IMG/VR virus record: IMGVR_UViG_3300029913_000100
Location: 1 to 26,297 of that record
Length of the DNA stretch: 26,297 bases
Strand: one strand, 5' to 3'
DNA from: a virus
The notes under the pieces were generated by a model. It had not been told where the DNA came from. It ran no database searches and saw only the letters and a list, made by a program, of their open reading frames with translations. Made by a program: the position numbers and the translations under genes. How positions within the stretch are numbered: position 1 is the first letter of the stretch; each line of letters opens with the position of its first letter. This document shows positions 1 through 23,911 of the stretch, piece by piece.

Positions 1-383
1 ATTTGTATTTTGAATTCACTGGCATTGATATGAAAGATGAGCAGGAGATGGTTAATATCAGAGCGTCTGAAGTACAAGCTTATAAGACTTTAGATGAGAC
101 TCGTGAGGAGGCTGGATTAGAACCGTACGATGACGAAGAAATTGGGAACCTAATACTTAACCCTGTTGTGGTTAACTACAAACTACAGCAACAAGCGCAG
201 CAACAACAAGCCCAACAAATGGAAGCTCAAGCTGGACAAGGTGGGGAACAAGGACAGCCAGACCCCAATAACCCCGGAGACCCGAACGAGTTTGTACAAG
301 GTGGAGCTTCGTCTCATCCAAGCCTCCAAGTTGGTAAGGCTCCAGAAGGGCAACCACCAGCTAGGCAAGGAAAAGCAAAATGA
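1..383 (+). CDS. Portal protein, C-terminal end (5' partial)
   Basis: The reading frame enters from the left edge and ends in TGA at 381-383. The visible residues (TGIDMKDEQE, then ASEVQAYKTLDETREEAGLEP) fit the C-terminal tail of SPP1/HK97-type portal proteins. In that family a helical stretch with R-x-x-E-G-L-x-P follows the receptor-like FEFTGID strand. After that comes a Gln-rich, Gly/Pro-rich, probably disordered tail of about 70 residues (QQQAQQQQAQQ, then GGEQGQPDPNNPGDPNE). The portal is the 12-subunit DNA-entry ring at one capsid vertex. Its place ahead of protease, scaffold and capsid genes supports the call. Most of the gene is outside the window, so the assignment rests on the tail and on gene order. 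The stop codon overlaps the start of the next gene (ATG at 380). Confidence 0.65.
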   Translation, partial: LYFEFTGIDMKDEQEMVNIRASEVQAYKTLDETREEAGLEPYDDEEIGNLILNPVVVNYKLQQQAQQQQAQQMEAQAGQGGEQGQPDPNNPGDPNEFVQGGASSHPSLQVGKAPEGQPPARQGKAK

Positions 384-636: not shown

Positions 637-648
637 GTGGGGAAGAAA

Positions 649-3600
649 ATGTCAAAATTTGAAGTGATGACGTTGGACGAAATCCATTATAACTTTCTTA
701 GAAACACTAAAAGTGTCAAAAAATCAGATTTGGAATCATCTCATCCTTATAATTCGTCATCCACAACTCCTAAAGAGATTCCCGTAGCTCCTAAAGAGAT
801 TCTTACAGTTCCACATACTTTAGCTCAATCATCGCCACCAGATGGTGGGCCACAAGAACAGTACGGATTCACACCGGAAAAATTCACAGTCAATACACCG
901 GCTAAAAAGAAAGTAAAGGCTCCTAAATTATTTTCGAAGTACGCACCTAACAGGCAAAAAGTCCCTGCGGATTGGGACCATTCAGTACCACCGAAGATTG
1001 AATCAGCTCCTGTTCCTGAGCCTTCTGAAAAGGATGAGGCACACATGGGACTCAAAGACCTGCTTCCAAGAGTACATAAGCAAAGATATTTAGAACATCA
1101 CCATTTTCATAAACTTCCTGATCACGAAAAAGAAGAGCATGTGTCTGAATCAGCCAACCCATTCAAACACTTCAACGAAAAGGAAAATAAAGTCCTTAGA
1201 AGAGATTTGAACAAAATTGTATTTGCAAGAGTGAAACAACTCCCCGCAATAAAAAAACTCATGAATACAGAAGGTTCTGGATTTACATTAGAGCACGAAA
1301 TTCCGGAAGTTGTCGAAAAAATTATTCAAGAGATGGGTCCAAGTCTGCAACTCAATGAGAAGGGTGAAAAAGCCAAAGAAGAAGGGAAACTAGAAAGTAC
1401 TCCATATACGCATGAATATCACAAGGGATATGATTGGAATACTCGTGAAAGTGTGATACCAGACTTTCAGATGATTGATACTTGGGCTAATCGTGTTTTG
1501 CTGGAAAAAAGGAAGTTTGGTGAGCTAACAGGCCATAAAGAATATGAAAAGCAATCTGTGAAAGCAAGATCAGTCAAGAGTGCAAAAGAGGAGCTTGATG
1601 TTCACAAATTGGCTGTTGGAATTGGAGGTGTGCTCGACGATCCGATTAAAAACCAGGACGGTAGCTACACTTATTCTATTTCCGATCACAGTGGTAATAA
1701 AATAGCTGAAGCTCCAACAATGAAAGACCTCAGGGATAAAATTGAGAGCGTGGGTGGTCTGAAACAAGCCGGTGTACAGAAGGAAGGTGTTTATGAGGTT
1801 CCAGACCTAAATAACGTAACAACGATGCAGAATATGAAGGACGTTGCTACTGGAATTGGAGCAGTCTTTAACCAGCTTGTTCAAAACCAGAATGGTGGCT
1901 ATACTTATTCTATTTCTGATCACAGTGGTAATAAGATAGCTGAAGCTCCAACCATGATTGGACTTAGAGAACAACTAGTAAATATGGGTAAATTAAAGGA
2001 GATTTCTCAGAATCCGTACGATCAATACGATGTTGCGCATGGAGAATTATTAGGACATACGAAGAAGGCGGATGAACTTGGGTCGAAGTTTGAAGCGTTG
2101 AAACACGACATCTCTCGTCTCACACCTGAAGACATTGATGGAGAAATTCAGAAACATAAGGCTAACGCTCAGCAAAATGGAAGCGATGTTTACGATATAG
2201 TTGAAACGCTAGATAAAGCAACAGACCTTACAAAAAGTCAGAAAGATGTAATTAGATACATCCTCCAAAGACTAACGGTAGCTGTAGATGGAATCGAAGA
2301 CCAAGACCAAGACGAAACGGAACATAATTTAAATCTTGCTGAAAAGCGCATTACATCGTTAGTGCTTCCGGAGAAGTATAACGATGTTCTGACAGAATTG
2401 AAAATTAAAACATACAAGATGTCTAAAGATATAAAATCCATGCAAGAACTGGCAGACCCAAAGCTCGACTTGAAGTTGGATGACCTTTTCGACCAAAAAG
2501 ATGCAATAGAGGCAGAACTTAACCCATCTTTGGATAATGTTAAGCAGATTCAAGACAAATTGAAAAAGCTTGAGAGTGGACTTCCTGGGATTGGCAAATA
2601 TAAGGAATTAAAAGACGAAATATCAAAAAAAGAAGAAAAACTCGCAGAATTAGCTGCTCAACAAAAAGGAATCAAAACGGTTAGCACCGATCACAAGACA
2701 GATGACGGTGAAAATTTAGATGTATCAGATTTACAGCAGTCTAAAGATTACAATAAAGATGATGAATATGAAAATAGTGATGAAACACAAAATAGTCTTG
2801 AGGATGAAACACCAGAATCTGGTGAAGAAGCGTTAAGTTTCGATGATGGTCTACAAGAAAAAGATCAAGACATTGGGGATCATTGGAAAGAAGACCAGGT
2901 GTTGGATGGAATATATAATAAGAATCATCAAGACTACCAACCACCTAACGCCGCAGCAATGCAAAAGCTTGTTCAAAAAGGATCGTTCTCTACGTTGTTT
3001 GGTTCAGACGGGAATCCCAATGGATTAGTCCATGTAGCCAACGATAGGATGATTAAATACGTAGAAGATGGCGATTTTACAAACCGTTTAGAAGAACTTA
3101 TAAAACAATTTTCGAAGAAAAACGGAGCCAATCACGATGATATACCTAAGTGGTTACACGCTGCAAAAACTGGAGCTAAAGGAGATACTGCACAGCGTAA
3201 ATGGAAATTTATTGTAGGTTTGGTTGAACCGTCGCAAGAACAGATTAAAGAAGAAATGAAAAACGGCGCAACAGAGGAAGAGGCGAGCAAAAATGTTGCA
3301 CGAATGAATGCGAATAAAGTTGTTATAACCGCTCTTCAATTCAGCAAATATCACGTAAATCCTCAGACTCGTGAAGATGTGCTATCTAGAGAAGAGGAAT
3401 TTGAAGAACTTAATTCTTTGATCCGTAGAAAGAAGCCAAAAATTAACAAAAAAAACGACGTAGATGAAGAGACGCTTGACCAAAACGCAAAGAAGGTTCT
3501 TGGAGAAGCAGATGGTTTCGATCCGCTGAAAGCACTTGGAGATGCACTTGTTGACGACAATCCATATGTATCTCATGAAGATAGAAAAATGTTCGACTTC

Positions 3601-4023
3601 ATTGCCGACTCGAATAGACATTACGGTGGAGGTGGAAGTTTGGCCGGGCCGGGTACATTAAGACGTAAGGGTGAAAGAAAGATTGATTTTATGCACGGTC
3701 TTTTTTATCACACACCTCCAGATTCTATTGATTGGAATAGCCATATTGGCGGTGATATAGAGACAGAAGAAGCGGCCAAACAAGCATGGCGGAAAAAAGT
3801 TAAACAATGGTATCATGAAAAACAAAAAGCAGTTGGAGTTGAAGAACCAGAGCCGCTCATATTCGACGAAGAATCGAATCCTGAGGAAACCGATCCTAAA
3901 GAATTAACTCCAGCTGAACAAATTGCTAAACTTGAAAAAGAGCAAGAAGATGATATGGGATATAAATCGTTTGTGTTTATAGACAAAAAAAATGAAGGTG
4001 TGAAGTTTATATTTAAGGGGTAA
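649..4023 (+). CDS. Large unrecognised head-region protein (1124 aa) with internal repeat
   Basis: I chose ATG 649 because GGGGA sits five bases before it; an in-frame GTG at 637 would add four residues. The product is hydrophilic, very rich in Lys, Glu and Asp, with no signal peptide or membrane segment. The first ~120 residues are Pro-rich and probably disordered. Two copies of a ~50-residue unit lie around residues 323-375 and 400-452, sharing SYTYSISDHSGNKIAEAPTM-like sequence and starting about 78 residues apart. A coiled-coil-like stretch follows (about 615-690, with KLKKLESGLPGIGKYKELKD). An acidic region, then a Trp-containing folded part (about 770-970) and a Lys-rich C-terminus complete it. 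Its location between portal and prohead protease suggests an internal virion, head-vertex or ejected protein. I do not recognise the family and assign no function. Confidence 0.6.
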   Translation: MSKFEVMTLDEIHYNFLRNTKSVKKSDLESSHPYNSSSTTPKEIPVAPKEILTVPHTLAQSSPPDGGPQEQYGFTPEKFTVNTPAKKKVKAPKLFSKYAPNRQKVPADWDHSVPPKIESAPVPEPSEKDEAHMGLKDLLPRVHKQRYLEHHHFHKLPDHEKEEHVSESANPFKHFNEKENKVLRRDLNKIVFARVKQLPAIKKLMNTEGSGFTLEHEIPEVVEKIIQEMGPSLQLNEKGEKAKEEGKLESTPYTHEYHKGYDWNTRESVIPDFQMIDTWANRVLLEKRKFGELTGHKEYEKQSVKARSVKSAKEELDVHKLAVGIGGVLDDPIKNQDGSYTYSISDHSGNKIAEAPTMKDLRDKIESVGGLKQAGVQKEGVYEVPDLNNVTTMQNMKDVATGIGAVFNQLVQNQNGGYTYSISDHSGNKIAEAPTMIGLREQLVNMGKLKEISQNPYDQYDVAHGELLGHTKKADELGSKFEALKHDISRLTPEDIDGEIQKHKANAQQNGSDVYDIVETLDKATDLTKSQKDVIRYILQRLTVAVDGIEDQDQDETEHNLNLAEKRITSLVLPEKYNDVLTELKIKTYKMSKDIKSMQELADPKLDLKLDDLFDQKDAIEAELNPSLDNVKQIQDKLKKLESGLPGIGKYKELKDEISKKEEKLAELAAQQKGIKTVSTDHKTDDGENLDVSDLQQSKDYNKDDEYENSDETQNSLEDETPESGEEALSFDDGLQEKDQDIGDHWKEDQVLDGIYNKNHQDYQPPNAAAMQKLVQKGSFSTLFGSDGNPNGLVHVANDRMIKYVEDGDFTNRLEELIKQFSKKNGANHDDIPKWLHAAKTGAKGDTAQRKWKFIVGLVEPSQEQIKEEMKNGATEEEASKNVARMNANKVVITALQFSKYHVNPQTREDVLSREEEFEELNSLIRRKKPKINKKNDVDEETLDQNAKKVLGEADGFDPLKALGDALVDDNPYVSHEDRKMFDFIADSNRHYGGGGSLAGPGTLRRKGERKIDFMHGLFYHTPPDSIDWNSHIGGDIETEEAAKQAWRKKVKQWYHEKQKAVGVEEPEPLIFDEESNPEETDPKELTPAEQIAKLEKEQEDDMGYKSFVFIDKKNEGVKFIFKG
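1615..1995 (+). repeat. Two-copy intragenic repeat within the 1124-aa gene
   Basis: Two segments, about 1615-1764 and 1846-1995, encode related ~50-residue units. The core CTTATTCTATTTC-GATCACAGTGG and the following GTAATAA-ATAGCTGAAGCTCC are nearly identical at the DNA level (about 1657-1710 and 1888-1941), with only a few third-position differences. The outer parts have diverged much more. This looks like a partial in-frame duplication in which the core has been kept, or re-homogenised, by recombination. Confidence 0.75.
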
Positions 4024-4450: not shown

Positions 4451-7400
4451 ATGATAAAATCCAACCAATTCGACATTTACAGTCCAAACGAGATTAAGGA
4501 AATGGATAAAGCGACCCTGCACGATACACCTCTGGGGCAGGCGGCTTTCGTCGTCCTTCCGATGAAAAAGGCTTTCGTTCATTCGTATTACAAAATTGTG
4601 AATGGCAAAATGGTTCACGTTGATTCGTACCACAACAAGGTGACCAAGAAGCCTGAAGAATTGACGGAACAGTATTACAAAGAAAACGGATTAACACCGG
4701 CTTCGACTGGACATCTTGGCATCCATCCGAAGGTTATGAAACCCGGCCAGCCATTATCTAGTGTTAACGAACACTACACATCGTATCAATACGGCGACCA
4801 AGTTTTTGTTCGTTATTCCCATATGCACGATCAACAATTCCTAGTTGGAGTTGTTGTTGGTATTCGAGACGACGTTAGTCACGCCGGACTACTCATTAAC
4901 GTGCAGCTACAGAACGGAAAAGTAGAGTCTTACAAACCCAAGAGTTTGATGCACATTCGCAAGGGTGATGCAGAGAATCGTCAAGACGAGAAAGAAGATC
5001 ACAACACAGACGAAAAAGGCCAGCCAGTACACTACAAGCATTTGAACGACGTGCAGCTGGGACAGTTTTACGATCTTCAACACTTGTGGTTCAAATTGCA
5101 GCGTACGAGTGAAATATTTGCATTTCAGAACAATAAAGATCAGTTCGTTAATGCAGATGGTACTTATCCGAAGAATAAGTCGGATATGACTAAGGAACAG
5201 AAAGCGCTATTAGAAAGCCTAAACCCCATAGCTGTCGTACCGTTCAAGTTGCTTGTGGAACAGGTTAGCGCTAGTGGATATAGTGATGGAACTCATTATA
5301 AGGCGATGCAAAACCTTCTTAATGATTTGAAAACATTGAAGGAACAGGGAGCACCGGATGTTCCGTTCCCCAAGTACCACAAAAAGAAGTCGAAGAAAGA
5401 ACCATTCATCATGCCGGAAGCATGGTATAAAAATAGCTTCCCACTTCAAACCACTGATGAAAAAATCGATGAAGATGAATTAGACAGCTTGATGGCTGAG
5501 ATTAAGAAGGAAACTGGTTCTACACCTTCTGTACCTAAACCACAGAAGAATGTATGGGGAGCTGATCTTAACTATACAGAAGTTGCCAATGTTCACGGTT
5601 CTGTTATTCACGATACAACCGACCAGATTTTTAAGTACCCGCAACCTGCCGTTCCAGCGCCAGCAGCGCAAATGGTTCCTCCACCACCGAAGGATAAGCC
5701 AGCTGCGCCAAAGAAAACTGGACCATCATTTACAATCCCTGAAGACAAGATTAATCCTGAAGCAAAGAAAACACCGACGCCAGCGCCTGAATCTATCGAT
5801 GAAGACGACATTGCCAACCTGTTCTCCGACCCCAAAAAATTCAAGGTTATGGGAACTGCCGATAATTTTGGGTTTGGCGGTATTCATACAAAATACATTC
5901 TCGACCCGGGCGATGGTCATCAATACCTGTTCAAGCCGTATCTGGCTGAAGAACCTCAACGTGCATGGGCTGATATCATCGCTTGTAAAGTTGCTCAAGC
6001 TACAGGCCTCCCCACAGCCGAATTTGGTTCGAAACCGATTACTGTTAAAATTCCATCCGGCTCAGGTGGTCATTATGCTGGTAGTAACGCTGTAGGTTCT
6101 GTACAGCGCGTTATGCCAAATGTTAAGCATAAAGATATTGGACACCTTATCAAGAAGGGTTGGGCAAGTGTACCGAAAGAAATTATTGAACGCTTTCAAC
6201 AAGAACATGTAGTGGATTGGCTCCTCGGAAACAACGATGCTCACCAAGAGCAGTTTGTTGTTTTGAACGATGGCAAAATTATTGGTGTTGATAAGGGACA
6301 AGCTTTCAAGTTTTACAAACAAGATAAGCTTGATTTAACGTACGACCCAAACGTTAATCATAAAAAGTTAGCTCAGATTTACAACCTGATGTTAGAAGCT
6401 GCTAAAGCTGGTGATATCAAGCTGGATTGGGCACCTGTCCAGAACTTCATCGAACATAACATGAAGAATCTTACTCCGTTGGCATGGACTAAGATGTTAT
6501 TCCCGTACGCAGCTCATTCTGCAGCTTGGGGTAACAAACAGCATGATTTTGTTAACCTCGGTGTTCAGCGTAAAGAAGACCTGCTCAAGGATTTCAAAAA
6601 GCTATATGCATCGGCTGGTATTGCCACTGAATACGATGCCAAACACGGTTCTTATAGCCAAGCAGAACAAGAAGAACTTCCGGCATCCGAAACACACCAA
6701 CCGGATGCATTCCAGAATATCGATGCTACATTCCATGCCCATGTTGTAGATGCAAAGGCAAGTGGTAAGGCGATCATGCTCGGCGGCGGCGACATTGAAG
6801 ATATGAACATGTTGTTCACTACCTATGATTGGAAAGACGGTAATAAGGGATTAACAGCATCTGGTAAGGTTCTCGCAGGTTCGGAAGCGAAAATATTGGG
6901 TTGGTTCGACACGGTCGTAGACCAACAAGTTGAATACATACACCAGCTTGGACCGTTGCCTAAAGACACAGCTGGCGATATTGTAATTTCTGCAGCCAAA
7001 ACAGTTAATAATCACTGTAAGAACGGTGGAAAGAACCCAGATGGGAATCCAAACGAAACCAAGATGAACGAATTCGCCAAAATGTTCCAAGGGCTCGATA
7101 AGTTCGACCCGAATGAACCGTTGCTTGATATTGGTGATTTGGCTATGAAGTTTCAGTCGACCAACATCAATAAAGACAACTTCAATAACCCTATCGCTCT
7201 TTCTCTAGACGTTGCCAACCATTATCACCAGATTGCAACACATGTAATGCAAGCAGTAAAGACCGGCGGTAAAACTGCTTCTAAGATGTACGGCAAGTGG
7301 GCAGGAAAAGACGGATATGATGTTAAGTCTACCAGTGTATCCAAAACCAATAAGCCTTGGGCTTCGTTCCCGAAGTTTGAATACGACCCTGCTACGGGTG

Positions 7401-8488
7401 GTTTAATTAGGACGAAAGGCGAGAAGAAGGCCACATACAAAGAACAAGCAAACTACGGAACAATGTTTAGCAAGAGTTTGCCGGGGAACATTGAGGTTCG
7501 TTACTACCCACATTATTCAACACAGCTGCACGGGCAGAACAACTATAGAAGCCAACAGGGTTCTTTGATGATTGACATGCACAAGTGGGATGGTAATCTC
7601 GAATCTATGCATCAACTCCGTCACACCCTTAAGGATATGGGATTAGATCACCGCTTATCCAATCATGATGATATTGAGTGTTTGTACCTCACTCGCTCCA
7701 TTTTTCATAATAAGGGAGACGTCTCTAATGCAAAAAAATGGAAAAAAGTAACAGCTATGGAGAATGGCCCCGACAAAATAAAGGCGCTAAAAGAACTAGC
7801 TACAGAGGTATACGGAAAGTCTCCAGATGAATTGAAGAATTACAACCCAATGCCGCAGTGGGATGATAACACTGGATATCATTATTTCTTGAATCCTTGG
7901 GTTCTTGACCATCTCCAAGAGTCGGATACAGTTCCAATAACGTCGCACGGTATTACTGGTAGTAATGATTCTGATATTGATGCTGTAACAAACATGGTTA
8001 ATTTGGGTATGCTATCCACTGAGGCTAGGCACCAGATGGGATTCAAGGTTGATGGTATGAGTTCCACCACAGATCAATCTAGCGGTGGTGCAGCATACGT
8101 ATTTAATAATCTGCAGAACGGTAGTAAATGTGTTCCAAAAGGACAAGAATTAGAAAACGCTAGCAGCGGAAGTTCTAATGGGTTTATATTCCGCCCCGAG
8201 CTGCTAGCTCGTACCGACACCCTAGCCTATTCCAATGACAATTACGGTGCGACGTTTGAAGCAGGCAGTGGATATAGCGGATACACTAAAACTGAGAACC
8301 GTATAGGTGCTATGGATTATGTTAAGAATGGTTCACATGTTCATGAGTTGAACTTTAAAAACCGTATTAGTCTTTACAAATGGCTGTTGGGACCAAAGGG
8401 AACATCAACCTTCAAGAAGAAGCTTAAGGCAGTAATAAAGAAACACAAACCCCACATGCTTAATCACACTACCTTTTTAGGCGTGTAA
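4451..8488 (+). CDS. Giant multidomain head-associated protein with kinase-like and putative ADP-ribosyltransferase domains (1345 aa)
   Basis: The N-terminal part (about 1-180) has an SYYKIVNGKMVHVDSYHNK segment and a small SH3/KOW-like beta domain (GDQVFVRYS, then LQNGKVESYKPKSL). A Pro/Ala linker precedes a kinase-like domain at about 464-690. This shows a glycine-rich loop (FGFGGIHTK, 473-481), a candidate ATP lysine K495 in LFKPY, a catalytic loop LLGNNDAHQEQF with D596 and H598, and a metal-type GVDKGQAF with D614. That arrangement is seen in HipA and PI3/4-kinase-like bacterial kinases. The C-terminal ~190 residues contain SHG (H1166), GMLSTEAR, GMSS then GGAAYVF (Y1216), ARTD, and HELNFKNRISL (E1299). 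This order suggests a PARP-type H-Y-E ADP-ribosyltransferase. The kinase-like call is fairly firm and the transferase call tentative. Just upstream of the prohead protease, it could be packaged and ejected like T4 Alt. Confidence 0.6.
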   Translation: MIKSNQFDIYSPNEIKEMDKATLHDTPLGQAAFVVLPMKKAFVHSYYKIVNGKMVHVDSYHNKVTKKPEELTEQYYKENGLTPASTGHLGIHPKVMKPGQPLSSVNEHYTSYQYGDQVFVRYSHMHDQQFLVGVVVGIRDDVSHAGLLINVQLQNGKVESYKPKSLMHIRKGDAENRQDEKEDHNTDEKGQPVHYKHLNDVQLGQFYDLQHLWFKLQRTSEIFAFQNNKDQFVNADGTYPKNKSDMTKEQKALLESLNPIAVVPFKLLVEQVSASGYSDGTHYKAMQNLLNDLKTLKEQGAPDVPFPKYHKKKSKKEPFIMPEAWYKNSFPLQTTDEKIDEDELDSLMAEIKKETGSTPSVPKPQKNVWGADLNYTEVANVHGSVIHDTTDQIFKYPQPAVPAPAAQMVPPPPKDKPAAPKKTGPSFTIPEDKINPEAKKTPTPAPESIDEDDIANLFSDPKKFKVMGTADNFGFGGIHTKYILDPGDGHQYLFKPYLAEEPQRAWADIIACKVAQATGLPTAEFGSKPITVKIPSGSGGHYAGSNAVGSVQRVMPNVKHKDIGHLIKKGWASVPKEIIERFQQEHVVDWLLGNNDAHQEQFVVLNDGKIIGVDKGQAFKFYKQDKLDLTYDPNVNHKKLAQIYNLMLEAAKAGDIKLDWAPVQNFIEHNMKNLTPLAWTKMLFPYAAHSAAWGNKQHDFVNLGVQRKEDLLKDFKKLYASAGIATEYDAKHGSYSQAEQEELPASETHQPDAFQNIDATFHAHVVDAKASGKAIMLGGGDIEDMNMLFTTYDWKDGNKGLTASGKVLAGSEAKILGWFDTVVDQQVEYIHQLGPLPKDTAGDIVISAAKTVNNHCKNGGKNPDGNPNETKMNEFAKMFQGLDKFDPNEPLLDIGDLAMKFQSTNINKDNFNNPIALSLDVANHYHQIATHVMQAVKTGGKTASKMYGKWAGKDGYDVKSTSVSKTNKPWASFPKFEYDPATGGLIRTKGEKKATYKEQANYGTMFSKSLPGNIEVRYYPHYSTQLHGQNNYRSQQGSLMIDMHKWDGNLESMHQLRHTLKDMGLDHRLSNHDDIECLYLTRSIFHNKGDVSNAKKWKKVTAMENGPDKIKALKELATEVYGKSPDELKNYNPMPQWDDNTGYHYFLNPWVLDHLQESDTVPITSHGITGSNDSDIDAVTNMVNLGMLSTEARHQMGFKVDGMSSTTDQSSGGAAYVFNNLQNGSKCVPKGQELENASSGSSNGFIFRPELLARTDTLAYSNDNYGATFEAGSGYSGYTKTENRIGAMDYVKNGSHVHELNFKNRISLYKWLLGPKGTSTFKKKLKAVIKKHKPHMLNHTTFLGV

Positions 8489-11422: not shown

Positions 11423-11472
11423 AGGGAGAAAACGTACGGCACAACTGCCCGTATATGTTTTCTCCCTTTTTT
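11423..11472 (+). terminator. Rho-independent terminator before the protease gene
   Basis: AGGGAGAAAACGTACGG (from 11423) pairs with CCGTATATGTTTTCTCCCT (to 11467) with one small bulge and a short loop, then TTTTTT (11467-11472). The hairpin ends only 16 bases before ATG 11488. It could therefore attenuate protease and scaffold expression relative to upstream genes, or it could end the upstream transcript. Confidence 0.85.
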
Positions 11473-11487
11473 GTTTGTGAGGATATA

Positions 11488-13701
11488 ATGGCGAACGCGA
11501 TCAAACAAGACGGTACATTCGAATTCTGGTACGAAGCTAATCTAGCTAAAGGCGAAGATGGCAAGCGCTGGATCGAAGGTATTGCTAGTACAGACCACAA
11601 AGACTTACAAGGCGAGAAGATTAAACAGGATGGTTTGGAATTAAGCTATTTCTTGAAGCGCGGATACTTCAATGATGATCATGCAAAAGAAACGTCAGGT
11701 AAAGTCGGTATCCCAACAGAAGCACGTATCACATCTAAAGGGTTGTGGACGAAGGGATTCCTGCTTGATACACCGAGAGCGAATGGAATTTGGGATTTGG
11801 CTGAGGGATTAAAGAAAGCTGGAGATGCCCGTAAATTGGGATTCTCTGTAGAGGGTAAGGTGTTATCTCGTGATGCCAGCGACCACACAATCATCACCAA
11901 GGCTTGGATTAAAGATATCGCCATCACAGCATCACCCATCAATCCGAACACGTTCTTGGATATTGCAAAATCGTTTGCTTCACAGAAGTATGATGAGGTT
12001 CTTGTGTTTGGCGAAAACGAAGAAGCTATTAACAAAGGAGTTGCTGCTGACGTAACTCAAACCAAGACTACGCAGAAACCAGATACAGATACTAAGCCGG
12101 AAGGTGAAGAGAAGAAAGCCGACAATGTTTTAGAAAGAACAGAAGAGGCGACAAAGTCTCCTGTGGTTAATCAAATCGATGTGGAAGAGAAGGATGCATT
12201 AGACGAAACCAAGAGAGCGTTGAGTGATAAGAAGCCGAAGCAGGATATGGAAAAGCAATTAGATGATGTTCCGCTGGCTAAGAAAGGCGTCGAATCAGAA
12301 CCACTATTCACAATCGAAGTTAATCAAAACGGCGATGTTGTGATTAAAGGTAAAAAAAGCACATTCAAACTTCCTAAAGAAGACCAAGCAATCGTTCCGG
12401 ATATAGAAGAAGGTAAAGCGCTGAAAGGCGATGAGCAAGGGCATGAAGAGAATAAGACAATGCACTCACACGCCGAGGCAGACTCCGACAAGAACCACAA
12501 AGAAATTGGACCAATAGTGAATGGTGTACATAGACCAACTACTGCTAAGAAATCGATTGATACGGATTTAGAAAAGGGTATTGAGATTGAACCGAAGATA
12601 TCTTCATACGATCCCAGAGTCAACGATTTCAAGATTGGTCATTATGGTGAAAATAAACAAAATTACAGCCATGTAAACCAAGGAATAGATTCTGGTATCC
12701 ATAATGGTATAAAGAACGGACATGGAATGAAACCTTTAGGGATGAATACTCACAAAACTGTGACCAGTTTTGCATCTCCAGAGAAAGGCATGTTACACAT
12801 ATCACATACTGGATTTACTCATATTCATCCTAGTGGTGATGTTACGACTGGAACACATGTCGGAGCACTAGACAGTTCTTTGAAAGCTCCAAAAATGCCA
12901 ATTTCTCCCATAACAAAGTCTATTTCATCGATTGATAATGGATGGTTTGAAAAAAGTACGAAGTGGACAACAATTCATTCTCACGGTGGAGAAATAAAGC
13001 TTGGGGATAAGAAGATGCCACTTCATAGTGTTACCTACGAAGACAAGGATAAGAAGCATCAAGTATCTGTTTCTGGCGATGGAGACACAGGCGCATTTGC
13101 TGTTCTTCATGCACTTCCTAATGCTAAGGGGACGTTGGAAACGATTGGTTCAAGAATATTTGCTGATGATCCAAAGACTGGTGCAAAGGGTAAAGACAAA
13201 TGTAAGAAGTATCTTGATGGATTCGGTATCAATCACAAGTTTTTGGATAAAAACAAGCTGATTAAGAAAGCGCTCATATGTGCTGCTGATAGTACTGAAG
13301 CTTGTGATGTGTGTAAGGAAATCATCATCAAAGGAAATATGTATATGGTAGAAGACGGCCATTCATATTGTGATGATAGCTGTATCGAAAAGGCTTTGGT
13401 TACTGGATATGCTTTCGGTGTAACTGACCAAACAGGTGGTTCAGCATTAAGGGTGGAATCATTAGAAGGTCAGCAAAAAGATTTGTCTTATGGGAAGGTG
13501 ATTGCTCCCGACCTGAAGACTACTAAGGTTGAGTTTGATACAGCACGTGCTAACGGTGGTCAAACATACGTTACGCTTCGTGATGCACTAGACTTTCTCG
13601 TTAATCGTGGTATCCCTGAGGCTCAAGCCGACCGGATACTCTTATTGATGGTGAAGAATGACGGAGATATATCAGGTTTAGCTCAAAAGGTTAAGAAGTA
13701 A
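11488..13701 (+). CDS. Prohead protease fused to a long scaffold-like and zinc-finger extension (737 aa)
   Basis: ATG 11488 has GAGGA at 11479-11483; the frame extends upstream only through the terminator. Residues about 10-165 fit the caudoviral prohead serine protease family (S78-like). They include WIEGIASTDHKDLQGE, FNDDH with H65, RKLGFSVEGKV with S120 as likely nucleophile, and DIAITASPINP. Such proteases are usually about 200 residues. Here more than 500 follow: a charged Lys/Glu region (190-330), a His/Gly-rich part with many SH and TH pairs (330-480), a beta-rich section, and a Cys4 finger (C606-x2-C609 and C628-x3-C632). At 640-669 comes a motif (YAFGVTDQ, RVESLE) nearly matching the capsid N-terminal arm, then a helical end. 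The enzyme matures the prohead by cleaving scaffold and capsid proteins, and the extension probably works as internal scaffold. Confidence 0.8.
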   Translation: MANAIKQDGTFEFWYEANLAKGEDGKRWIEGIASTDHKDLQGEKIKQDGLELSYFLKRGYFNDDHAKETSGKVGIPTEARITSKGLWTKGFLLDTPRANGIWDLAEGLKKAGDARKLGFSVEGKVLSRDASDHTIITKAWIKDIAITASPINPNTFLDIAKSFASQKYDEVLVFGENEEAINKGVAADVTQTKTTQKPDTDTKPEGEEKKADNVLERTEEATKSPVVNQIDVEEKDALDETKRALSDKKPKQDMEKQLDDVPLAKKGVESEPLFTIEVNQNGDVVIKGKKSTFKLPKEDQAIVPDIEEGKALKGDEQGHEENKTMHSHAEADSDKNHKEIGPIVNGVHRPTTAKKSIDTDLEKGIEIEPKISSYDPRVNDFKIGHYGENKQNYSHVNQGIDSGIHNGIKNGHGMKPLGMNTHKTVTSFASPEKGMLHISHTGFTHIHPSGDVTTGTHVGALDSSLKAPKMPISPITKSISSIDNGWFEKSTKWTTIHSHGGEIKLGDKKMPLHSVTYEDKDKKHQVSVSGDGDTGAFAVLHALPNAKGTLETIGSRIFADDPKTGAKGKDKCKKYLDGFGINHKFLDKNKLIKKALICAADSTEACDVCKEIIIKGNMYMVEDGHSYCDDSCIEKALVTGYAFGVTDQTGGSALRVESLEGQQKDLSYGKVIAPDLKTTKVEFDTARANGGQTYVTLRDALDFLVNRGIPEAQADRILLLMVKNDGDISGLAQKVKK

Positions 13702-13749: not shown

Positions 13750-14652
13750 ATGAAATTTTGTGGCGAATGCGGTACTCAAACAAATGGCGCTGCTTGCTCA
13801 GCTTGCACATCAAAGTCGGCTGCTGGTCTTAGCTTCGAGAGTCTCGATAAGAGCTTAGCTGTTCTCGAGAATGTTTCTAAGGGTGTTCGTCCAGCTCCTG
13901 CAAAGGAAAACGATACCGACAAGCGTACGGCTAAAGAAGTTGCTGAAGACGCCAAGGAACTGCAGAAGAAATACGGCCAACATGGCGAGGGCGAAACAGA
14001 AGAGCAGCCCAAGACCAAGAAGGGCGTTGAGGAAGTTGCCAAGAAGGGATTCCCCCTTCCAGAACAGGAAGAAGAGGAAGAGCAGGAGTTTGCTCCTCGT
14101 CGGAGGTCACGTCCAGAAGAGGAAGAGGAAGAGGAAGAGGCCCGAGAGCCTGAGTTCAAATCAGCTAGCAAGAAAAAGAAGACAAAGAAATCATTTGCCG
14201 ATACGCTAGCCGAGAATTCAGAAGCTGTTTCGAAGGCCATCGACATTTCCGACTATCTTCGTGATTTTGTGTATGCAGTTTCGGAATCAACAGATGGTTT
14301 GTCAGCTCGTGTTGAGAAGTCGTTGGCACGTCAGGCTGGTCAAGGCGAATTCAATGTGGCGCTTGCAAAGGCTATGCAGCAAGTTGGTATTTTGCTAAAG
14401 GGCTTGACTGAAAAGGTTGAATCTTTCGGTACGACACCTGCTGGGCAGCGTAAATCCGATGTCAGCGTTGTTGAGAAGAGCTTCGGTGGTAAAGAGGGAA
14501 CAGAACTTAAGAAGAGCGATATTGCTGCAAAGCTTACAACTCTCATGGAAAGTGGTAACAAGAGCGTAACAGTGGCTGATGTACTTTCAGCTGATGCTTC
14601 CGGTTTTGTTCGCCCCGAGCTTCGTGAGTTGGTTGGATTGCCAGTAGCTTAA
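13750..14652 (+). CDS. Scaffold-type protein with N-terminal zinc ribbon (300 aa)
   Basis: ATG 13750 has GGGAGAA at 13738-13744. The N-terminus is a zinc-ribbon pattern C4-x2-C7-x8-C16-x2-C19 (KFCGECGTQ, ACSACTSK). Residues about 26-40 (LSFESLDKSLAVLEN) resemble the FRVESLESSLKVLSF region of the capsid protein. A highly charged middle (runs of Glu near 110-135, then KSASKKKKTKKS) leads to a helical C-terminal half (DYLRDFVYAVSESTDGL, FNVALAKAMQQVGILLKGL) ending in RPELRELVGLPVA. The position directly before the capsid gene, the acidic and helical composition, and the length fit a head scaffolding or core protein, probably degraded by the upstream protease. A zinc ribbon on a scaffold is uncommon. 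Confidence 0.65.
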   Translation: MKFCGECGTQTNGAACSACTSKSAAGLSFESLDKSLAVLENVSKGVRPAPAKENDTDKRTAKEVAEDAKELQKKYGQHGEGETEEQPKTKKGVEEVAKKGFPLPEQEEEEEQEFAPRRRSRPEEEEEEEEAREPEFKSASKKKKTKKSFADTLAENSEAVSKAIDISDYLRDFVYAVSESTDGLSARVEKSLARQAGQGEFNVALAKAMQQVGILLKGLTEKVESFGTTPAGQRKSDVSVVEKSFGGKEGTELKKSDIAAKLTTLMESGNKSVTVADVLSADASGFVRPELRELVGLPVA

Positions 14653-14678
14653 TCACTGCTGATTTTTTGGAGGATAAC

Positions 14679-16109
14679 ATGGCTTTAGACTTTCGTGGTA
14701 TTAACGGTTACGGTGAATCAAGAGATGTTCCCGACTTGCAGAAGGCTTTGTCAGCTGGGTACAACTACGGGGTTACCGACCAAGCAGGCGGTGGAGCGTT
14801 CCGTGTGGAATCGCTCGAAAGCTCATTAAAGGTTCTATCGTTCACAGAACAGAATATTCGTCTGTGGAAGAATCTCCCCAAGATGCCAGCATTCAACACC
14901 GTTGAGGAATATAACCAGCTTACCGCCTATGGCGATAACAGCAACGCCTTCATTCCTGAGGCAGTGATGCCTGAAACACAGGATAGCAACTACAGCCGTA
15001 AGGTTGCACTTGTCAAGTTCTTGGGCACCACACGTGTGGTTTCCCATGTTATGACGATGGTTCGCAGCGCTCACGGTGATGTGGTTGCACTGGAGAACAA
15101 GAACGGCATTCTTTGGCTTCTACAGCAAATTGAGCGTTCGCTGTTCTGGGGCAACAACACTCTGACTGCTGGATACAGCAATGTGTCGGGCGGAAAGGAA
15201 GGCATCGAGTGGGCTGGTCTGGAAGCACAGATCGATCCTACGATGATTATCGACGCCAAGGGTGGGTCGTTAACTGAAGGTATTCTGGAAGACGCTTGCG
15301 AGCTGATTGCCGAGCAGTTTGGTCGTGCATCATGTCTCTACACCCCCTACAAGGTGGCTAGCGACTTCTCCAAGACCTTCTTCCCGAAAGAGCGTGCATT
15401 GCTCCCAACAGCGTCCGGTGGATATGCTGCTGGTAGCGTGATCAACACGTTCGCTTCACAGTTCGGTAACATCGACATTCTGTCTGATGTATTCCTTACC
15501 AAGAACCGTAAGGCTACTGGTTTGGCACCGAGTGCAGCAACTTCGGCTAACGCTCCTCAAACACCTGCTTCTATCTCTCCTGCTTCCACCGCTTACAACT
15601 CTGCACAGATTGGCGCATGGAAGAATCCTGGGACTCGTTACTACAAGGCGACCGCTGTTAACCGCTTTGGTGAGTCTGCAGCTACTGCTGCTTCATCTGG
15701 TTTGGTGGTTTCATCTGGTGACGTTTCCGCTGGAAACTCTTCACTGTTGACCATTACCAACCCTGCTTCGATGAGCGGTTTGGTGCCCGATTACTTCAAC
15801 GTTTATGCTTGTGATGTGTCGTCTACAGGTTCGTTCTACTACCTGTTCTCGGTTGCAGCTGCTTCTGTTACTGCCTCCGCAACAACGACATACACCGATA
15901 CAGGCCTCTATATGACTGTGGTTAGCACTTGCTACCTTGGTCAAATGGATAACGAAGTCCTCGCTTTCAAGCAGCTTGCACCGCTTATGAAGATGGACCT
16001 CGCTGTTATCGGCCCGGCTATTCGTTGGATGATATTGCTGTATGGAACTTTGGTAATGTATGCTCCTCGGAAATGGGTTCGTATCATCAATGTTGGCGAT
16101 ATTTCGTAA
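14679..16109 (+). CDS. Major capsid protein, HK97-fold, with Ig/FN3-like insertion (476 aa)
   Basis: ATG 14679 follows GGAGG at 14669-14673. The N-terminal arm (about 12-57) has the DLQKALSAGYNYGVTDQ and FRVESLE motifs. Next come LWKNLPKMPAFNTVEEYNQL, EAVMPETQDSNYSRKVALVK and LWLLQQIERSLFWGNN, a pattern typical of large-myophage major capsid proteins and their E-loop/P-domain. A likely inserted domain occupies about 280-412. It begins with a Pro/Ala/Ser linker, holds YYKATAVNRFGESAATA (fibronectin-III-like strands) and ends near YTDTGLYM. The capsid chain then resumes (QMDNEVLAFKQLAPLMKMDLA). Hundreds of copies build the shell, and the insertion would project outward. The strong SD and following terminator fit high expression. 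Confidence 0.85.
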   Translation: MALDFRGINGYGESRDVPDLQKALSAGYNYGVTDQAGGGAFRVESLESSLKVLSFTEQNIRLWKNLPKMPAFNTVEEYNQLTAYGDNSNAFIPEAVMPETQDSNYSRKVALVKFLGTTRVVSHVMTMVRSAHGDVVALENKNGILWLLQQIERSLFWGNNTLTAGYSNVSGGKEGIEWAGLEAQIDPTMIIDAKGGSLTEGILEDACELIAEQFGRASCLYTPYKVASDFSKTFFPKERALLPTASGGYAAGSVINTFASQFGNIDILSDVFLTKNRKATGLAPSAATSANAPQTPASISPASTAYNSAQIGAWKNPGTRYYKATAVNRFGESAATAASSGLVVSSGDVSAGNSSLLTITNPASMSGLVPDYFNVYACDVSSTGSFYYLFSVAAASVTASATTTYTDTGLYMTVVSTCYLGQMDNEVLAFKQLAPLMKMDLAVIGPAIRWMILLYGTLVMYAPRKWVRIINVGDIS

Positions 16110-16611: not shown

Positions 16612-17013
16612 ATGGCACTAGAAGGCTACAAATCGAACTTAAATGTGGTGTATTCGAGCAAGTACCATGTGGTATGGACGCCGAAGTATAGGCGCAGTGT
16701 TTTGATTGGTGATATTGCAGCACGGTGCGAATCTGTCATTAGGCAAGTGGCAGAGAAGTATAAGGCAGAAGTAATTGCGCTAGAAATCATGCCAGACCAT
16801 GTTCACGTACTCGTGGAAATTGATCCTCAGTTTGGCATTCACCGCCTTGTCAAGAACATGAAGGGTGTTTCATCTCACACGCTGAGAAATGAGTTTAGAA
16901 CGCTGAAATCAAAGTTGCCGACGTTGTGGACAAATAGCTATTTTGTTTCAACAGTTGGCGGGTCTCCACTGGAAGTAATAAAACAGTACGTTGAAAATCA
17001 GAAAAATGTCTAA
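16612..17013 (+). CDS. tnpA: IS200/IS605 Y1 HUH transposase TnpA (133 aa)
   Basis: This is a single-strand-specific transposase that cuts and rejoins IS ends through a 5'-phosphotyrosine. The HUH motif is H63-V-H65 within MPDHVHVLVE. The catalytic tyrosine is Y126 in EVIKQYVENQ, with Q130 one helical turn on, the same layout as IS608 TnpA. The length and the start (SSKYHVVWTPKYRR) are typical of the family, and no key residue is missing, so it should be active. ATG 16612 has no clear ribosome-binding site. A TTTACC (16576) and TATAGT (16600) pair just upstream could give a nearly leaderless transcript. Its stop overlaps the tnpB start. Confidence 0.95.
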   Translation: MALEGYKSNLNVVYSSKYHVVWTPKYRRSVLIGDIAARCESVIRQVAEKYKAEVIALEIMPDHVHVLVEIDPQFGIHRLVKNMKGVSSHTLRNEFRTLKSKLPTLWTNSYFVSTVGGSPLEVIKQYVENQKNV

Positions 17014-18181
17014 ACAACGCAAGGTGTTCAAATTCCGCATGGAGCCAACGTCTGACGAAGCACAGAAACTTTTGTGCCAAGCGGGGGCATCTAGGCTTGT
17101 GTGGAACCTTGCTTTGGATTGCTGCCGGACATTCTACAAAGAAAACAAGAAAAGCATATCTCAGTCACGATTATCCGTGGAACTCACTAAATTCAAAGAG
17201 TCTAGGCCGTGGATGTACGATTTTGATTCACAGTCGTTGCAGCAGGTTCTAAAGAATTTGAAGCGTGCATACGATAACCATTTCAACCCAAAGATGAATG
17301 CCGGATTTCCTGTATTCAAAACCAAGAAGAGTACAAAACAAACCTTCCGTATACCACAGAGAGTAGTGGTAAAAGATGGTAAAGTGTATGTTCCTAAGAT
17401 CGGCTGGATAAAGATACGTCAATCACGAATCATTGACGGTGAAACAAAATCAGCGACATTTAAGCGCACAGCAACGGGTCGTTGGTTTGTTATATTAGTT
17501 TATGAGTTTGAATTAACAGAATGTTTGCCAAAGGTAAAACCTGAGCAGGTGCAAGGTGGCGATCTTGGATTGAATACATATCTAACGCTGTCTGACGGGG
17601 ACGAGGTCTCAGTTCCAAAGTTCTACCGTCGTCATGCTCAAAAGCTAAAGAAAGCTCAACAAAAGGTGTGCCGTCGCGTTAAAGGTAGTCGTAACCGTGC
17701 CAAAGCAGTTGCCGCTGTTGCAAAGGTCTATGAACGGATTTCAAATCTACGGAGTAATTTTGCTCATCAACTAACGCATGGTCTGGTTGAAAAGTATCCA
17801 GCGCTGTGTCTTGAAGATTTAAGCATCAAAGGTCTTGCGAAAACCAAGCTGGCTAAGTCGATGCTCGATGCCGCATTCGGAGAAACAGTTCGACAATGGA
17901 AGTATAAATCAATTTGGAATAACAGGCACGCAGTCCAGGTTGATAGGTTCTTTCCAAGCACGAAACTGTGCAGCGAATGCGGATACAAAAACAATAACCT
18001 AACTCTTTCAGATAGAGAGTGGAACTGTCCTTCTTGTGGAAGTCATCACAGCCGGGATGGAAACGCATCTCTAAATCTGAAAGCGGAAGGAATCAGGATA
18101 CTCGACGCCTTGGGATACATGGAGTCGTTAAACGACTGCGGACAGTGTGTAAGTCTAGAGAAATTCAGCTACGCTGGTTGA
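17006..18181 (+). CDS. tnpB: RNA-guided nuclease TnpB of the IS608-like element (391 aa)
   Basis: ATG 17006 overlaps the tnpA stop by eight bases, the usual coupled arrangement. The N-terminal wedge/REC region starts KVFKFRMEPTSDEAQKLL, and ASRLVWNLALD is typical. The split RuvC site is complete: D186 in GGDLGLNTYLTLSDG, E270 in CLEDLSIKGL and D351 in HSRDGNASLNLKAEG. The zinc finger between the last two is C322-x2-C325 and C341-x2-C344. TnpB cuts DNA next to a short TAM using an RNA from the element's right end and helps keep the IS in place after excision. With all residues present it should be a working nuclease. The expected TAM is TTAC, the left target sequence. Confidence 0.95.
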   Translation: MSKQRKVFKFRMEPTSDEAQKLLCQAGASRLVWNLALDCCRTFYKENKKSISQSRLSVELTKFKESRPWMYDFDSQSLQQVLKNLKRAYDNHFNPKMNAGFPVFKTKKSTKQTFRIPQRVVVKDGKVYVPKIGWIKIRQSRIIDGETKSATFKRTATGRWFVILVYEFELTECLPKVKPEQVQGGDLGLNTYLTLSDGDEVSVPKFYRRHAQKLKKAQQKVCRRVKGSRNRAKAVAAVAKVYERISNLRSNFAHQLTHGLVEKYPALCLEDLSIKGLAKTKLAKSMLDAAFGETVRQWKYKSIWNNRHAVQVDRFFPSTKLCSECGYKNNNLTLSDREWNCPSCGSHHSRDGNASLNLKAEGIRILDALGYMESLNDCGQCVSLEKFSYAG

Positions 18182-21808: not shown

Positions 21809-23911
21809 ATGCCAACTGTATTTAATGGTCAATTTATTGTGCAACCACAAGCAAGCGTGGCGGTTGATGATTCACAGCTTTTGAATCTAAATCCAGGCGC
21901 GCAGAACGTTTTGGCGATTGTTGGCACATGCACTGCTGGCGTTCCACAACGGCCTGTGTTAGTGTCAGACCCGACAACCGCTCGTAGCCTACTTCGCAGT
22001 GGCGATTTGCTGAATGCAACGCTTCTGGCGTTTTCTCCATCCGCTGAAACTGGTGGTGCTACAAACATTTACGTAGTCCGTGCCAACTCCGCAACTTCAT
22101 CAAGTGCTCGTGTGCTTGATGTTGCTGGAACAAAGGCTACTGGAACACTGACTGTCGGCGGAACATTCGCCGCTGGCGTCGTGTTGACTGCAACAATCGG
22201 CGGAGTTCTCGTCAGCTACACAACTCAAGCTGGTGATACAAACATTAGTGGTGTTGCTACTTCGCTGGCATTAGCGATAAACACGAACGCTGCCCTTGGA
22301 AATAGCTTAACTGGTGTTACTGCTACAGCTGTTGCAGCTGTGATTACTCTAACCGCTCGTACAGCTGGCGTAGACGGCAATGCCATCACAACGGTTTCAA
22401 CTGGCACAGGTGTAACTCTTGTTGCTTCAGCTGGAACGCTAACCACTGGTACGGGAAACACACTGATAACCATCACATCTGATGATTACGGCTTGTATAC
22501 GAGCCAAATATATTTTAAGTTTGCAGCTGGTTCTGTATCAGGAATAAAAGCAACGGTTGGTTTGACAACGGTTGGAAATATAGTTGGTGGAACGGTCACA
22601 CAAGACAACCTAGCTCGCCCGTTGCTTCAGGTGCAATACATAGGTACTGCTGGAACATGCACAGCGACTGTTAACGATACTGCATTTGTGACCACATCAG
22701 CAACAGTAGGTGAATCGTTGAATCTATTGTTTGCTACATACACAACCGTGCAGAATCTTGCCGATTATCTCAATGCAACTGGAATATACCAAGCAACCGT
22801 TTTGAACAACAACGGAACCTACACGACTGCTTCACAGTTTGATAACGTTTCGGCTGTGAATATCAAAGCTTCAGCGGTGTCATTCAATGCTAATCTTCAG
22901 GCCTTGATTGATTGGTTGAACGCTCCAAGCACACCGTTTATTAGTGCTGCACGCGCTGTTAATCCTCTAGCTGTTCTTCCGTATTTCTCCGCAAATAATC
23001 AGTTTTTGGTTGGTGGCACGGAAGGAACAAGCACTGTAACGGATTGGACAAATTCCATAGCTTCACTTCAGAATGTTGATTGTCAAATCATCATCCCGAC
23101 ATCGACTAACGCCTCTATTCACGCTGCCGTAAGCACACATTGCAGCTATATGGCTGGACCTGGAAGGATGCCTCGTGTTGGAATTTGCGGCGGTGCTTTG
23201 GGCGAATACCTGCCTAACGGTTCCAACCCGGTTGCAACCATTGTGGCTAGGGCTACAGCATTAAATACGGATAGAATTCTGTTGGCATCTCCCGGTATTT
23301 CGTATTACGATGTTAACCAGAATCTACAAGTTGCTTCATCTTGCTTCACAGCTGCTCTATACGCTGGAATGCTAGCTGCAGTGGCTCCGGGTGTTCCGCT
23401 GACACACAAGTACCCTTCAAATGTTGTTGCATTGGAGACAACTTATACACCTTCCGACCTTAATACGTTATTGCTTGGTGGAATTTCGCCGCTACAGTAC
23501 GTACAAAACAAGGGGTATAGAATCTGCCAGAGCCGCACAACTTGGACACAAACAACCAGCTGGGCACACACTGAAATCAGTACTAAGATGGCTATCGACA
23601 CTGTGTCTCGTAGAGTGCAAGACGCTCTCGACGACGATGTTGTTGGGCAGGTAGTCTCACCAATCACTTTAGCACTAGCTGTTTCAGTTGCTGAAACGAT
23701 TTTGAAGCAGGCAACTACCGATAACTTGATTGTTGGTGACGCTAATTCGCCTTCTTATCAAAATATTACGGCATCAACGGGCGGCGGAGATACGATTAAT
23801 GTGTCGTTCCAGATTTCTCCTGCAATCCCAGCAAATTATGTTCTAGTAAATATCTCTACCGTGCCGTATGTTGGTTCAGCGTCGGTTAGTTCTACGGTGG
23901 CTGGTTCCTAA
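21809..23911 (+). CDS. Contractile tail sheath protein with inserted Ig-like domain (700 aa)
   Basis: ATG 21809 follows AGAGGG. The N-terminal domain (SQLLNLNPGAQNVLAIVGTC, GVPQRPVLVSDPTTARSLLR, GDLLNATLLAFSPSAETGGA, NIYVVRANSAT) is the classic sheath start. The C-terminal domain (YRICQSRTTWTQTTSW, AIDTVSRRVQDALDDDVVG, LAVSVAETILKQA) matches the conserved sheath core that contacts the tube. Residues about 108-217 are an Ig-like insertion whose first 36 codons are identical in DNA to the decoration-type gene. The insertion would face outward. The subunits contract to drive the tube through the envelope. The next gene is the tube, as expected. Confidence 0.9.
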   Translation: MPTVFNGQFIVQPQASVAVDDSQLLNLNPGAQNVLAIVGTCTAGVPQRPVLVSDPTTARSLLRSGDLLNATLLAFSPSAETGGATNIYVVRANSATSSSARVLDVAGTKATGTLTVGGTFAAGVVLTATIGGVLVSYTTQAGDTNISGVATSLALAINTNAALGNSLTGVTATAVAAVITLTARTAGVDGNAITTVSTGTGVTLVASAGTLTTGTGNTLITITSDDYGLYTSQIYFKFAAGSVSGIKATVGLTTVGNIVGGTVTQDNLARPLLQVQYIGTAGTCTATVNDTAFVTTSATVGESLNLLFATYTTVQNLADYLNATGIYQATVLNNNGTYTTASQFDNVSAVNIKASAVSFNANLQALIDWLNAPSTPFISAARAVNPLAVLPYFSANNQFLVGGTEGTSTVTDWTNSIASLQNVDCQIIIPTSTNASIHAAVSTHCSYMAGPGRMPRVGICGGALGEYLPNGSNPVATIVARATALNTDRILLASPGISYYDVNQNLQVASSCFTAALYAGMLAAVAPGVPLTHKYPSNVVALETTYTPSDLNTLLLGGISPLQYVQNKGYRICQSRTTWTQTTSWAHTEISTKMAIDTVSRRVQDALDDDVVGQVVSPITLALAVSVAETILKQATTDNLIVGDANSPSYQNITASTGGGDTINVSFQISPAIPANYVLVNISTVPYVGSASVSSTVAGS
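22136..22243 (+). repeat. 108-bp perfect direct repeat, copy 2 (tail sheath gene)
   Basis: Identical base for base to 9662-9769 and in the same codon phase. It forms the first half of the Ig-like insertion of the sheath. Beyond base 22243 the two genes still encode related strands but the DNA has diverged. Confidence 0.95.

Follow-up and report, generated by a model that had tools for sequence, protein, structure and literature searches.

What is encoded by the long reading frame that lies among the head genes of the phage represented by IMG/VR virus record IMGVR_UViG_3300029913_000100? The window, i.e. the whole stretch of 26,297 nucleotides analyzed here (positions 1 to 26,297 of that record), contains at 4451..8488 on the + strand an open reading frame (ORF; P0001) that starts with ATG and stays open for 1345 codons. 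An original prediction, made from the letters of the DNA, had read the product as a fusion of a HipA/PI3K-like kinase and a PARP-like ADP-ribosyltransferase (ART) that is delivered with the virion. The residues on which it relied (K495, D596-A-H598, G612-V613-D614, H1166, Y1216 and E1299) were all found where it had placed them in this single chain of 1345 amino acids (aa). The reading we favor, at a probability of roughly 0.6, is that its product is an effector with two enzyme activities, from a contractile-tailed phage, which would be packaged, ejected and used to modify host proteins. Its central domain is predicted to be an atypical kinase of the PI4K-II/CtkA/Fam20C/HipA type acting by phosphorylation, and its C-terminal domain an ART with a histidine-tyrosine-glutamate (H-Y-E) triad acting by ADP-ribosylation.

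Direct searches with the whole window protein against Pfam, PHROG, NCBIfam and PDB sequences returned nothing useful. Scans of IMG/VR with the single sequence found only near-identical copies, and the C-terminus as sole query found no phage record. Identical or near-identical copies of the 1345-aa ORF are present on a 59-kb and an 89-kb IMG/VR contig, and a partial copy on a 17-kb contig. A tblastn search of phage records yielded 12 mycobacteriophage records that match within residues 477-751 at 24-39% identity, and a kinase-domain alignment made from these records reached 105 IMG/VR stretches and 23 bacterial-genome loci. The relatives kept were 80 of 105 and 80 of 104 in the kinase searches and 80 of 134 in a search from the H-Y-E domain. 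The kinase loci gave 73 distinct ORFs; the non-redundant set used for counting has 55 rows (window included) and omits L001-L004 and L008, matches shorter than 240 aa (e.g. L085) and rows at least 92% alike.

The kinase-like domain covers residues 432-760 (5744..6730, + strand), based on the 55-row alignment (A4) and on a predicted model. By position, K495 (codon 5933..5935, + strand) is the ATP-binding lysine, D596 (6236..6238, + strand) the catalytic-loop aspartate and D614 (6290..6292, + strand), 18 residues downstream of D596, the metal-binding aspartate. They are conserved beyond chance, in 54, 55 and 55 of the 55 rows, respectively, and K495 is placed on strand 61-66 of the kinase model (model numbering). 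The segment proposed as the G-loop (473-481) reads FGFGGIHTK, with G477 being a glycine in 54/55 rows; H598 is a histidine in 47/55 rows, and W590, R707 and K708 are kept in all 55, the window being counted in each case. The motifs used to recruit the kinase relatives surround D596 and D614, so that these two residues are biased in the 55-row set; the lysine and both aspartates were therefore recounted in ORFs found via the C-terminal domain. This recount used 29 of the 31 kinase-matching ORFs that were found solely via that domain (match >200 residues), and the equivalents of K495, D596 and D614 were each kept in 29/29.

The fold itself was addressed with an AlphaFold2 model of the domain (mean predicted local distance difference test score, pLDDT, 87.9; predicted template modeling score, pTM, 0.84), which includes a helical C-lobe. 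Foldseek against the PDB gave CtkA as the top match (E 2.1e-6), with PI3-kinases and PI4K-II next in rank. VIA-align gave Z 17.3 to PI4K-IIbeta (8a5x; root-mean-square deviation 4.1, 247 residues aligned), 14.9 to CtkA, 13.4 to Fam20C, 12.0 to both actin-fragmin kinase and an N-terminal fragment of LepB, 11.9 to the bacterial Ser/Thr kinase 7vkc and 11.4 to HipT. Weak Pfam matches agree with this picture: at E<=0.1, HipA_C was matched by 37 of the 55 kinase members, PI3_PI4_kinase by 16 and Fam20C by 12. The HipA/PI-kinase-type fold that the original prediction had proposed is strongly supported by a confident model, by Z scores from 17.3 to 11.4 to known kinases and by these Pfam matches, the structure prediction and fold search that it had suggested as a check returning PI4K-II, CtkA, Fam20C and HipT as neighbors.

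A profile search had been suggested as well; it matched HipA_C and PI3_PI4_kinase below cut-off and no ART family. The curated Pfam cut-offs are not reached by the window kinase (15.0 vs 30.5 bits for HipA_C and 15.2 vs 27.1 bits for PI3_PI4_kinase), nor are they by the relatives for which bits are given. When the kinase profile was run against PDB sequences, nothing came below E 0.04. Two observations on this domain weigh against the favored reading. Residue 601, where the metal-binding asparagine of kinases is expected, is a glutamine in the window protein; across the 55 rows, this position shows Q 27 times, N 23 times and A 5 times. The first entries in the PDB sequence search were two phage sheath-type proteins (E 0.04-0.06), with HipA, xylosylkinase and the PI-kinases ranking behind them from E 0.37 upward. 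On balance, the predicted model makes residues 432-760 a kinase-fold domain with catalytic residues and a family of its own, with strong support for the fold. It shares fold and order of catalytic residues with PI4K-II, CtkA, Fam20C and HipA/HipT, but just 8-19% identity in the listed structural alignments, and differs from PI4K-II, CtkA, Fam20C and HipA in conserved marks of its own: the catalytic loop is followed by D-K-G-Q-A-F, and the C-lobe contains R707-K708. Phosphoinositides are absent from most bacteria, actinobacteria being an exception, and for this reason a protein kinase is more likely here than a lipid kinase.

The second conserved family occupies residues 1024-1309 (7520..8377, + strand), with an ART-like part at about 1161-1333. 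Its triad consists of H1166 in an SHG motif (codon 7946..7948, + strand), Y1216 in GGAAYVF (8096..8098, + strand) and E1299 in HELNF (8345..8347, + strand). Conservation was first counted in 23 rows recruited by the kinase, window included, with partial domains and rows at least 85% alike omitted: H, Y and E were found in 22, 22 and 20 of the 23 rows, again beyond chance. A second set of 45 rows (window included, Pan1 outside the count) was recruited by a pattern around Y1216 and is hence biased at that residue; there H is kept in 43/45 and E in 44/45, the remaining row being a gap. Homologues of the window protein thus retain both D/H/D and H/Y/E in most rows. The order H-Y-E is typical of PARP-type ARTs. 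In the predicted model of the C-terminal part, H lies on strand 186-189, Y on strand 237-243 and E on strand 320-324, i.e. on strands 1, 2 and 5 when strands of at least 3 residues are counted from 186. The same 1-2-5 order of triad strands is described for H-Y-D ARTs by Iyer et al. (PMC5512222). In a second look with VIA over 195 chains, the best match of this model was DarT (Z 6.0, model residues 183-355), followed by DarT1 (5.4) and CteC (5.2-4.5). Ranks 1-6 and 8 were all held by entries of DarT, DarT1, CteC and OspC3, the last in eighth place with Z 3.6; the OspC3 entry and the untitled CteC entries are structures that we take to be of ART-type enzymes.

Could residues 1024-1309 instead adopt some other fold that happens to conserve H, Y and E? 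Significant matches to an ART were found neither with profiles, Pfam or Foldseek nor among PDB sequences, and a series of observations weighs against an ART at this point. The model is of moderate quality (pLDDT 68.4, pTM 0.73), and its best Z of 6.0 falls under the level of 8 at which VIA itself places trust. Foldseek with this model gave nothing below E 0.9 in the PDB; its top BFVD entry, a Tupanvirus protein, came at E 0.054. (That BFVD entry, A0A6N1NNZ5 of Tupanvirus soda lake, is an uncharacterized protein of 170 aa with probability 0.93 and a TM score of 0.50 by target length; the match is not significant.) In hhalign, the H-Y-E region matched DarT with a probability of 0.3% (column-shuffled controls up to 2.6%), KptA with 0.1% (controls up to 0.6%) and the arginine-serine-glutamate (R-S-E) ARTs with 0.0% (controls up to 0.5%). 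These three were the ART profiles compared; PARP relatives, sought as a comparison set, amounted to one sub-threshold match across 145 genomes. At E<=1, 19 Pfam families were matched by the 25 members of the family alignment (A3), no ART model among them, and the A3 profile matched three PDB sequences, none an ART. The triad is also incomplete in a few rows: H1166 is replaced by Q in L042 of the 23-row set and likewise in L262 and L285 of the 45-row set, and E1299 is replaced by Q in L165, L167 and L169 of the 23-row set. The single exception at Y1216 in that set is S in L088. No ART family of NCBIfam recognizes residues 1024-1309. A short hhalign alignment that pairs E1299 with a DarT glutamate was not counted as evidence.

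Set against a non-ART fold are the order of the triad, its placement on the strands, the consistent ART neighbors at low Z and the exchange of the same C-terminal slot with R-S-E ARTs that Pfam does recognize (see below), and we consider such a fold very unlikely. The model and these comparisons indicate that the C-terminal domain is very probably an ART, most likely a mono-ADP-ribosyltransferase with an H-Y-E triad whose family no Pfam model matches. For the original claim of a PARP-like ART, this means that triad conservation and strand placement make a good, if not conclusive, case, whereas a significant sequence-profile match did not materialize; in the fold search, ART enzymes do top the VIA list, but at Z of at most 6.0 and with no significant Foldseek match. 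DarT and CteC are thus low-Z structural matches of the C-terminal model, while the profile similarity of DarT to the H-Y-E domain does not rise above shuffled controls. A Tox-ART-HYE1 family is listed in PMC3482391.

The two domains are not an isolated combination. Among the 55 non-redundant kinase ORFs, the C-terminal slot holds the H-Y-E domain in 22 and an R-S-E ART (the Pfam ADPrib_exo_Tox kind, counted with a profile built from Pfam-recognized relatives) in 20, and in none does it hold both. Five of the remaining ORFs are truncated, and eight with an uncut 3' end contain neither ART by profile. In three of these eight (L165, L167 and L169) the H-Y-E domain is encoded in a nearby downstream ORF separate from the kinase, and L026 is a copy of the Phrappuccino protein, which bears three R-S-E-like motif copies; the other four (L018, L089, L154 and L170) are kinases with no detected ART. 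The three loci with split ORFs are from Desulfofundulus and Desulfovirgula, and it is in these that the ART glutamate is replaced by Q in all cases. Outside the 55-row set, L085 combines the kinase with an R-S-E ART. The usual layout is MuF or VG15, then kinase, then ART; in one case a Nudix domain separates MuF from the kinase. The reverse search, starting from the H-Y-E domain, reached 134 stretches (80 kept) with 54 distinct ORFs, 12 of them already found by the kinase and 42 new. Of the new ORFs, 36 have at least 450 aa upstream of the H-Y-E domain, and the kinase was detected at E <1e-3 in 31 of them; the other five gave borderline kinase matches (E 0.0014 to 0.023). A cultured exception is gp15 of Pseudanabaena phage Pan1, which has MuF and the H-Y-E domain and no detected kinase. 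The pairing of kinase and ART is seen repeatedly, both in contigs of phages and in the genomes of widely differing bacteria.

This distribution bears on what the kinase does. Rather than acting on host targets by itself, it might act in cis on its partner ART, silencing it during assembly or activating it in the new host. Because the kinase stays while the class of ART changes (22 H-Y-E vs 20 R-S-E of 55), this is the strongest rival of the reading we favor. On the kinase tree, with L165, L167 and L169 scored as H-Y-E and L026 as R-S-E, at least 3 changes of ART type are required, long branches being a caveat to this number. The occurrence of kinase and H-Y-E domain as separate nearby ORFs in L165, L167 and L169 would fit such control, and SidJ offers a precedent: this enzyme with a kinase fold modifies SidE-type ARTs at their catalytic glutamate. 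Pan1, where H-Y-E and MuF occur and no kinase is detected, and the four kinase ORFs that contain no detected ART speak against it, and shared delivery alone could also explain the pairing. We regard control in cis as possible but doubtful. Equally tentative is its extension to a widespread class in which one kinase family is combined with interchangeable ARTs of two active-site types and serves as a built-in switch of the ART.

A two-enzyme effector acting on host proteins requires delivery, for which the evidence is contextual. The fusion gene sits between the portal and the head protease of a contractile-tailed phage, as had been proposed. The C-terminal end of the portal gene lies at 3..383 (+ strand), where the same residues occur that end the portal on the 89-kb contig; the portal of that contig (899 aa; phrog_12, E 1.5e-47) is the source of the identification, and upstream of it a large terminase is encoded (phrog_675, E 9.5e-137). 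The head maturation protease (748 aa; phrog_1028, E 3.1e-52) is encoded at 11455..13701 (+ strand). This position among head genes, together with MuF and other minor-head domains fused to the kinase in many relatives, supports delivery with the virion: MuF is found in the same chain as the kinase in 20 of 47 rows with an intact 5' end, and some other kinase relatives contain VG15 or minor-capsid domains. Weighing against delivery, MuF was not detected in the window protein itself with a profile built from the relatives, so that the case for packaging of this protein rests on gene position. Its N-terminal region (residues 1-431; 4451..5743, + strand) has no useful Pfam, PHROG or NCBIfam match. 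An SH3-like domain was also looked for at the N-terminus and found no support. The interval between the two enzymatic parts is a conserved linker module (residues 761-1020; 6731..7510, + strand) that can be aligned with the corresponding residues in 12 further H-Y-E fusions; by eye, this module is also present in Pan1 gp15, i.e. in a protein without the kinase.

The ORF might alternatively encode a late cytoplasmic protein that is not packaged, or a structural component of the head whose enzyme domains are inactive. The failure to detect MuF in the window protein would be expected under this explanation, as would the loss of the ART glutamate or of the metal-binding asparagine in some relatives. 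The catalytic residues of both domains are, however, kept in most rows examined, and in many relatives the chain also includes a minor-head domain; we hold this explanation to be distinctly unlikely and retain the two-enzyme effector as the preferred reading, with virion packaging, injection, catalysis and targets as its presumed parts.

The original prediction had further stated that it knew of no described phage protein with both activities in one chain, and as stated this does not hold: the same kinase-like domain (24-39% identity) is chained to ART domains or ART-like motifs in Onyinye gp16, in proteins of Mycobacterium abscessus prophages and in Phrappuccino gp195, all of which are already in GenBank. 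The fusion genes of Onyinye and of the M. abscessus prophages adjoin terminase, portal or scaffold genes, and that of Phrappuccino adjoins a gene annotated as 'virion structural protein'. The ART of Onyinye and of the prophage is of the R-S-E type (PF03496), unlike the H-Y-E type of the window. The prophage protein has VG15 at its N-terminus and is named 'minor capsid and ADP-ribosyltransferase domain fusion protein', whereas Phrappuccino gp195 (L004:5635-11727, annotated as hypothetical) has the kinase-like domain at the N-terminus, followed by the three R-S-E-like motif copies, which were found with a regular expression. The GenBank product names of the mycobacteriophage and prophage relatives mention ART, minor capsid or hypothetical, and kinase occurs in none of those listed. 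Kinase-ART fusions are thus already on record in GenBank, with the kinase unnamed. The combination found in the window, i.e. the kinase with the same C-terminal H-Y-E family, occurs in proteins of phrog_6577 such as L155 from a Desulfocarbo genome, which differs from the window protein in its detectable N-terminal MuF. PHROGs lists phrog_6577 as of unknown function, and its profile spans residues 76-1408 of L155, a range that runs from MuF into the H-Y-E domain and covers only a portion of the latter.

Large multi-effector proteins that are thought to be injected have been described as polyvalent proteins, a class that holds ART and kinase domains; H-Y-D ARTs and kinases devoid of the C-terminal subdomain are described there (Iyer et al., 2017; PMC5512222), as opposed to the helical C-lobe in the window model. 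Neither Kinase-PolyVal (PF18762) nor ART-PolyVal (PF18760) was matched by any of five records at E 1, the window's included; the former was absent among the 17 families obtained for the 55 kinase members and the latter among the 19 families obtained for the 25 members of the C-terminal family. Membership in the polyvalent kinase and ART families was rejected for want of a match to either model, and a distant kinship may exist. Judged by comparison with Pfam, PHROG and the PolyVal models, the kinase-like domain and the H-Y-E domain apparently represent two families that have had no name so far. For delivery, the model by analogy is T4 Alt, an ART effector that is packaged in the head and injected with the DNA and has an R-S-E active site, as described in PMC5512222. 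The active site of Alt differs from the H-Y-E triad of the window protein. T4 Alt is not known to have a kinase domain. Fusion to MuF is noted for many ARTs of the Alt/VIP2 and N4 types in PMC9503650, and PMC5576092, in whose main text the word 'kinase' does not appear, gives the share of putative ARTs among 191 MuF toxins as 14%. A paper that names the kinase-ART combination was not found in searches of the open-access literature, most subscription papers being beyond this coverage. The fusion may be placed as a variant among the virion-associated multi-effector proteins.

The remaining genes of the window conform to a structural cluster in which the large genes named here are all on the + strand. 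Between portal and fusion lie an ORF of 1128 aa (637..4023, + strand) with no convincing Pfam or PHROG family match and an ORF of 138 aa with no assigned function; a stretch of about 19 residues is present twice in the 1128-aa product. Downstream of the protease are a scaffolding-like protein (13750..14652, + strand; phrog_15087, E 1.5e-8), a major capsid protein of the SU10 type (14667..16109, + strand; PF17236, E 2.6e-9; phrog_752, E 6.2e-100) and the contractile tail sheath (21809..23911, + strand; phrog_279, E 6e-53). An IS200/IS605-type element, located inside the cluster just 3' of the capsid gene (16612-18181), contains genes for a Y1 transposase (PF01797, E 1.1e-42) and OrfB/TnpB (PF01385, PF07282) and is also present on the 89-kb contig, at 99.97% identity across 7751 bases. 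Beside it, a 113-aa ORF (18229-18570), perhaps a remnant, resembles members of an endonuclease family over their C-terminal portion (phrog_4645, E 3.9e-6). The portal gene of the 89-kb contig (L173:868-3567) has an in-frame insert at roughly residues 174-533, which by eye resembles an intein; its C-terminal junction is of the HNC type, and it matches reductase, helicase and endonuclease families. Rfam at gathering scores gave no match within the window.

As a mechanism, we propose that the protein is made alongside the head proteins, would be packaged in the head and ejected together with the phage DNA, and would then phosphorylate and ADP-ribosylate host proteins early in infection, in analogy with the ADP-ribosylation by T4 Alt. 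The present analysis gives each of the two catalytic domains a likely enzyme function, in a large phage family that has been listed as unknown, hypothetical or ART-only, and it delimits a probable ART family that no Pfam model covers. If the fusion protein is delivered, the phage could apply two protein modifications at the start of infection; since Onyinye, Leopard, Aikoy and Phrappuccino, all grown on M. smegmatis mc2 155, carry relatives, this is directly testable. Should the kinase turn out to be a guard or activator of its ART, the two would form a delivery-linked enzyme pair of a kind not described so far.

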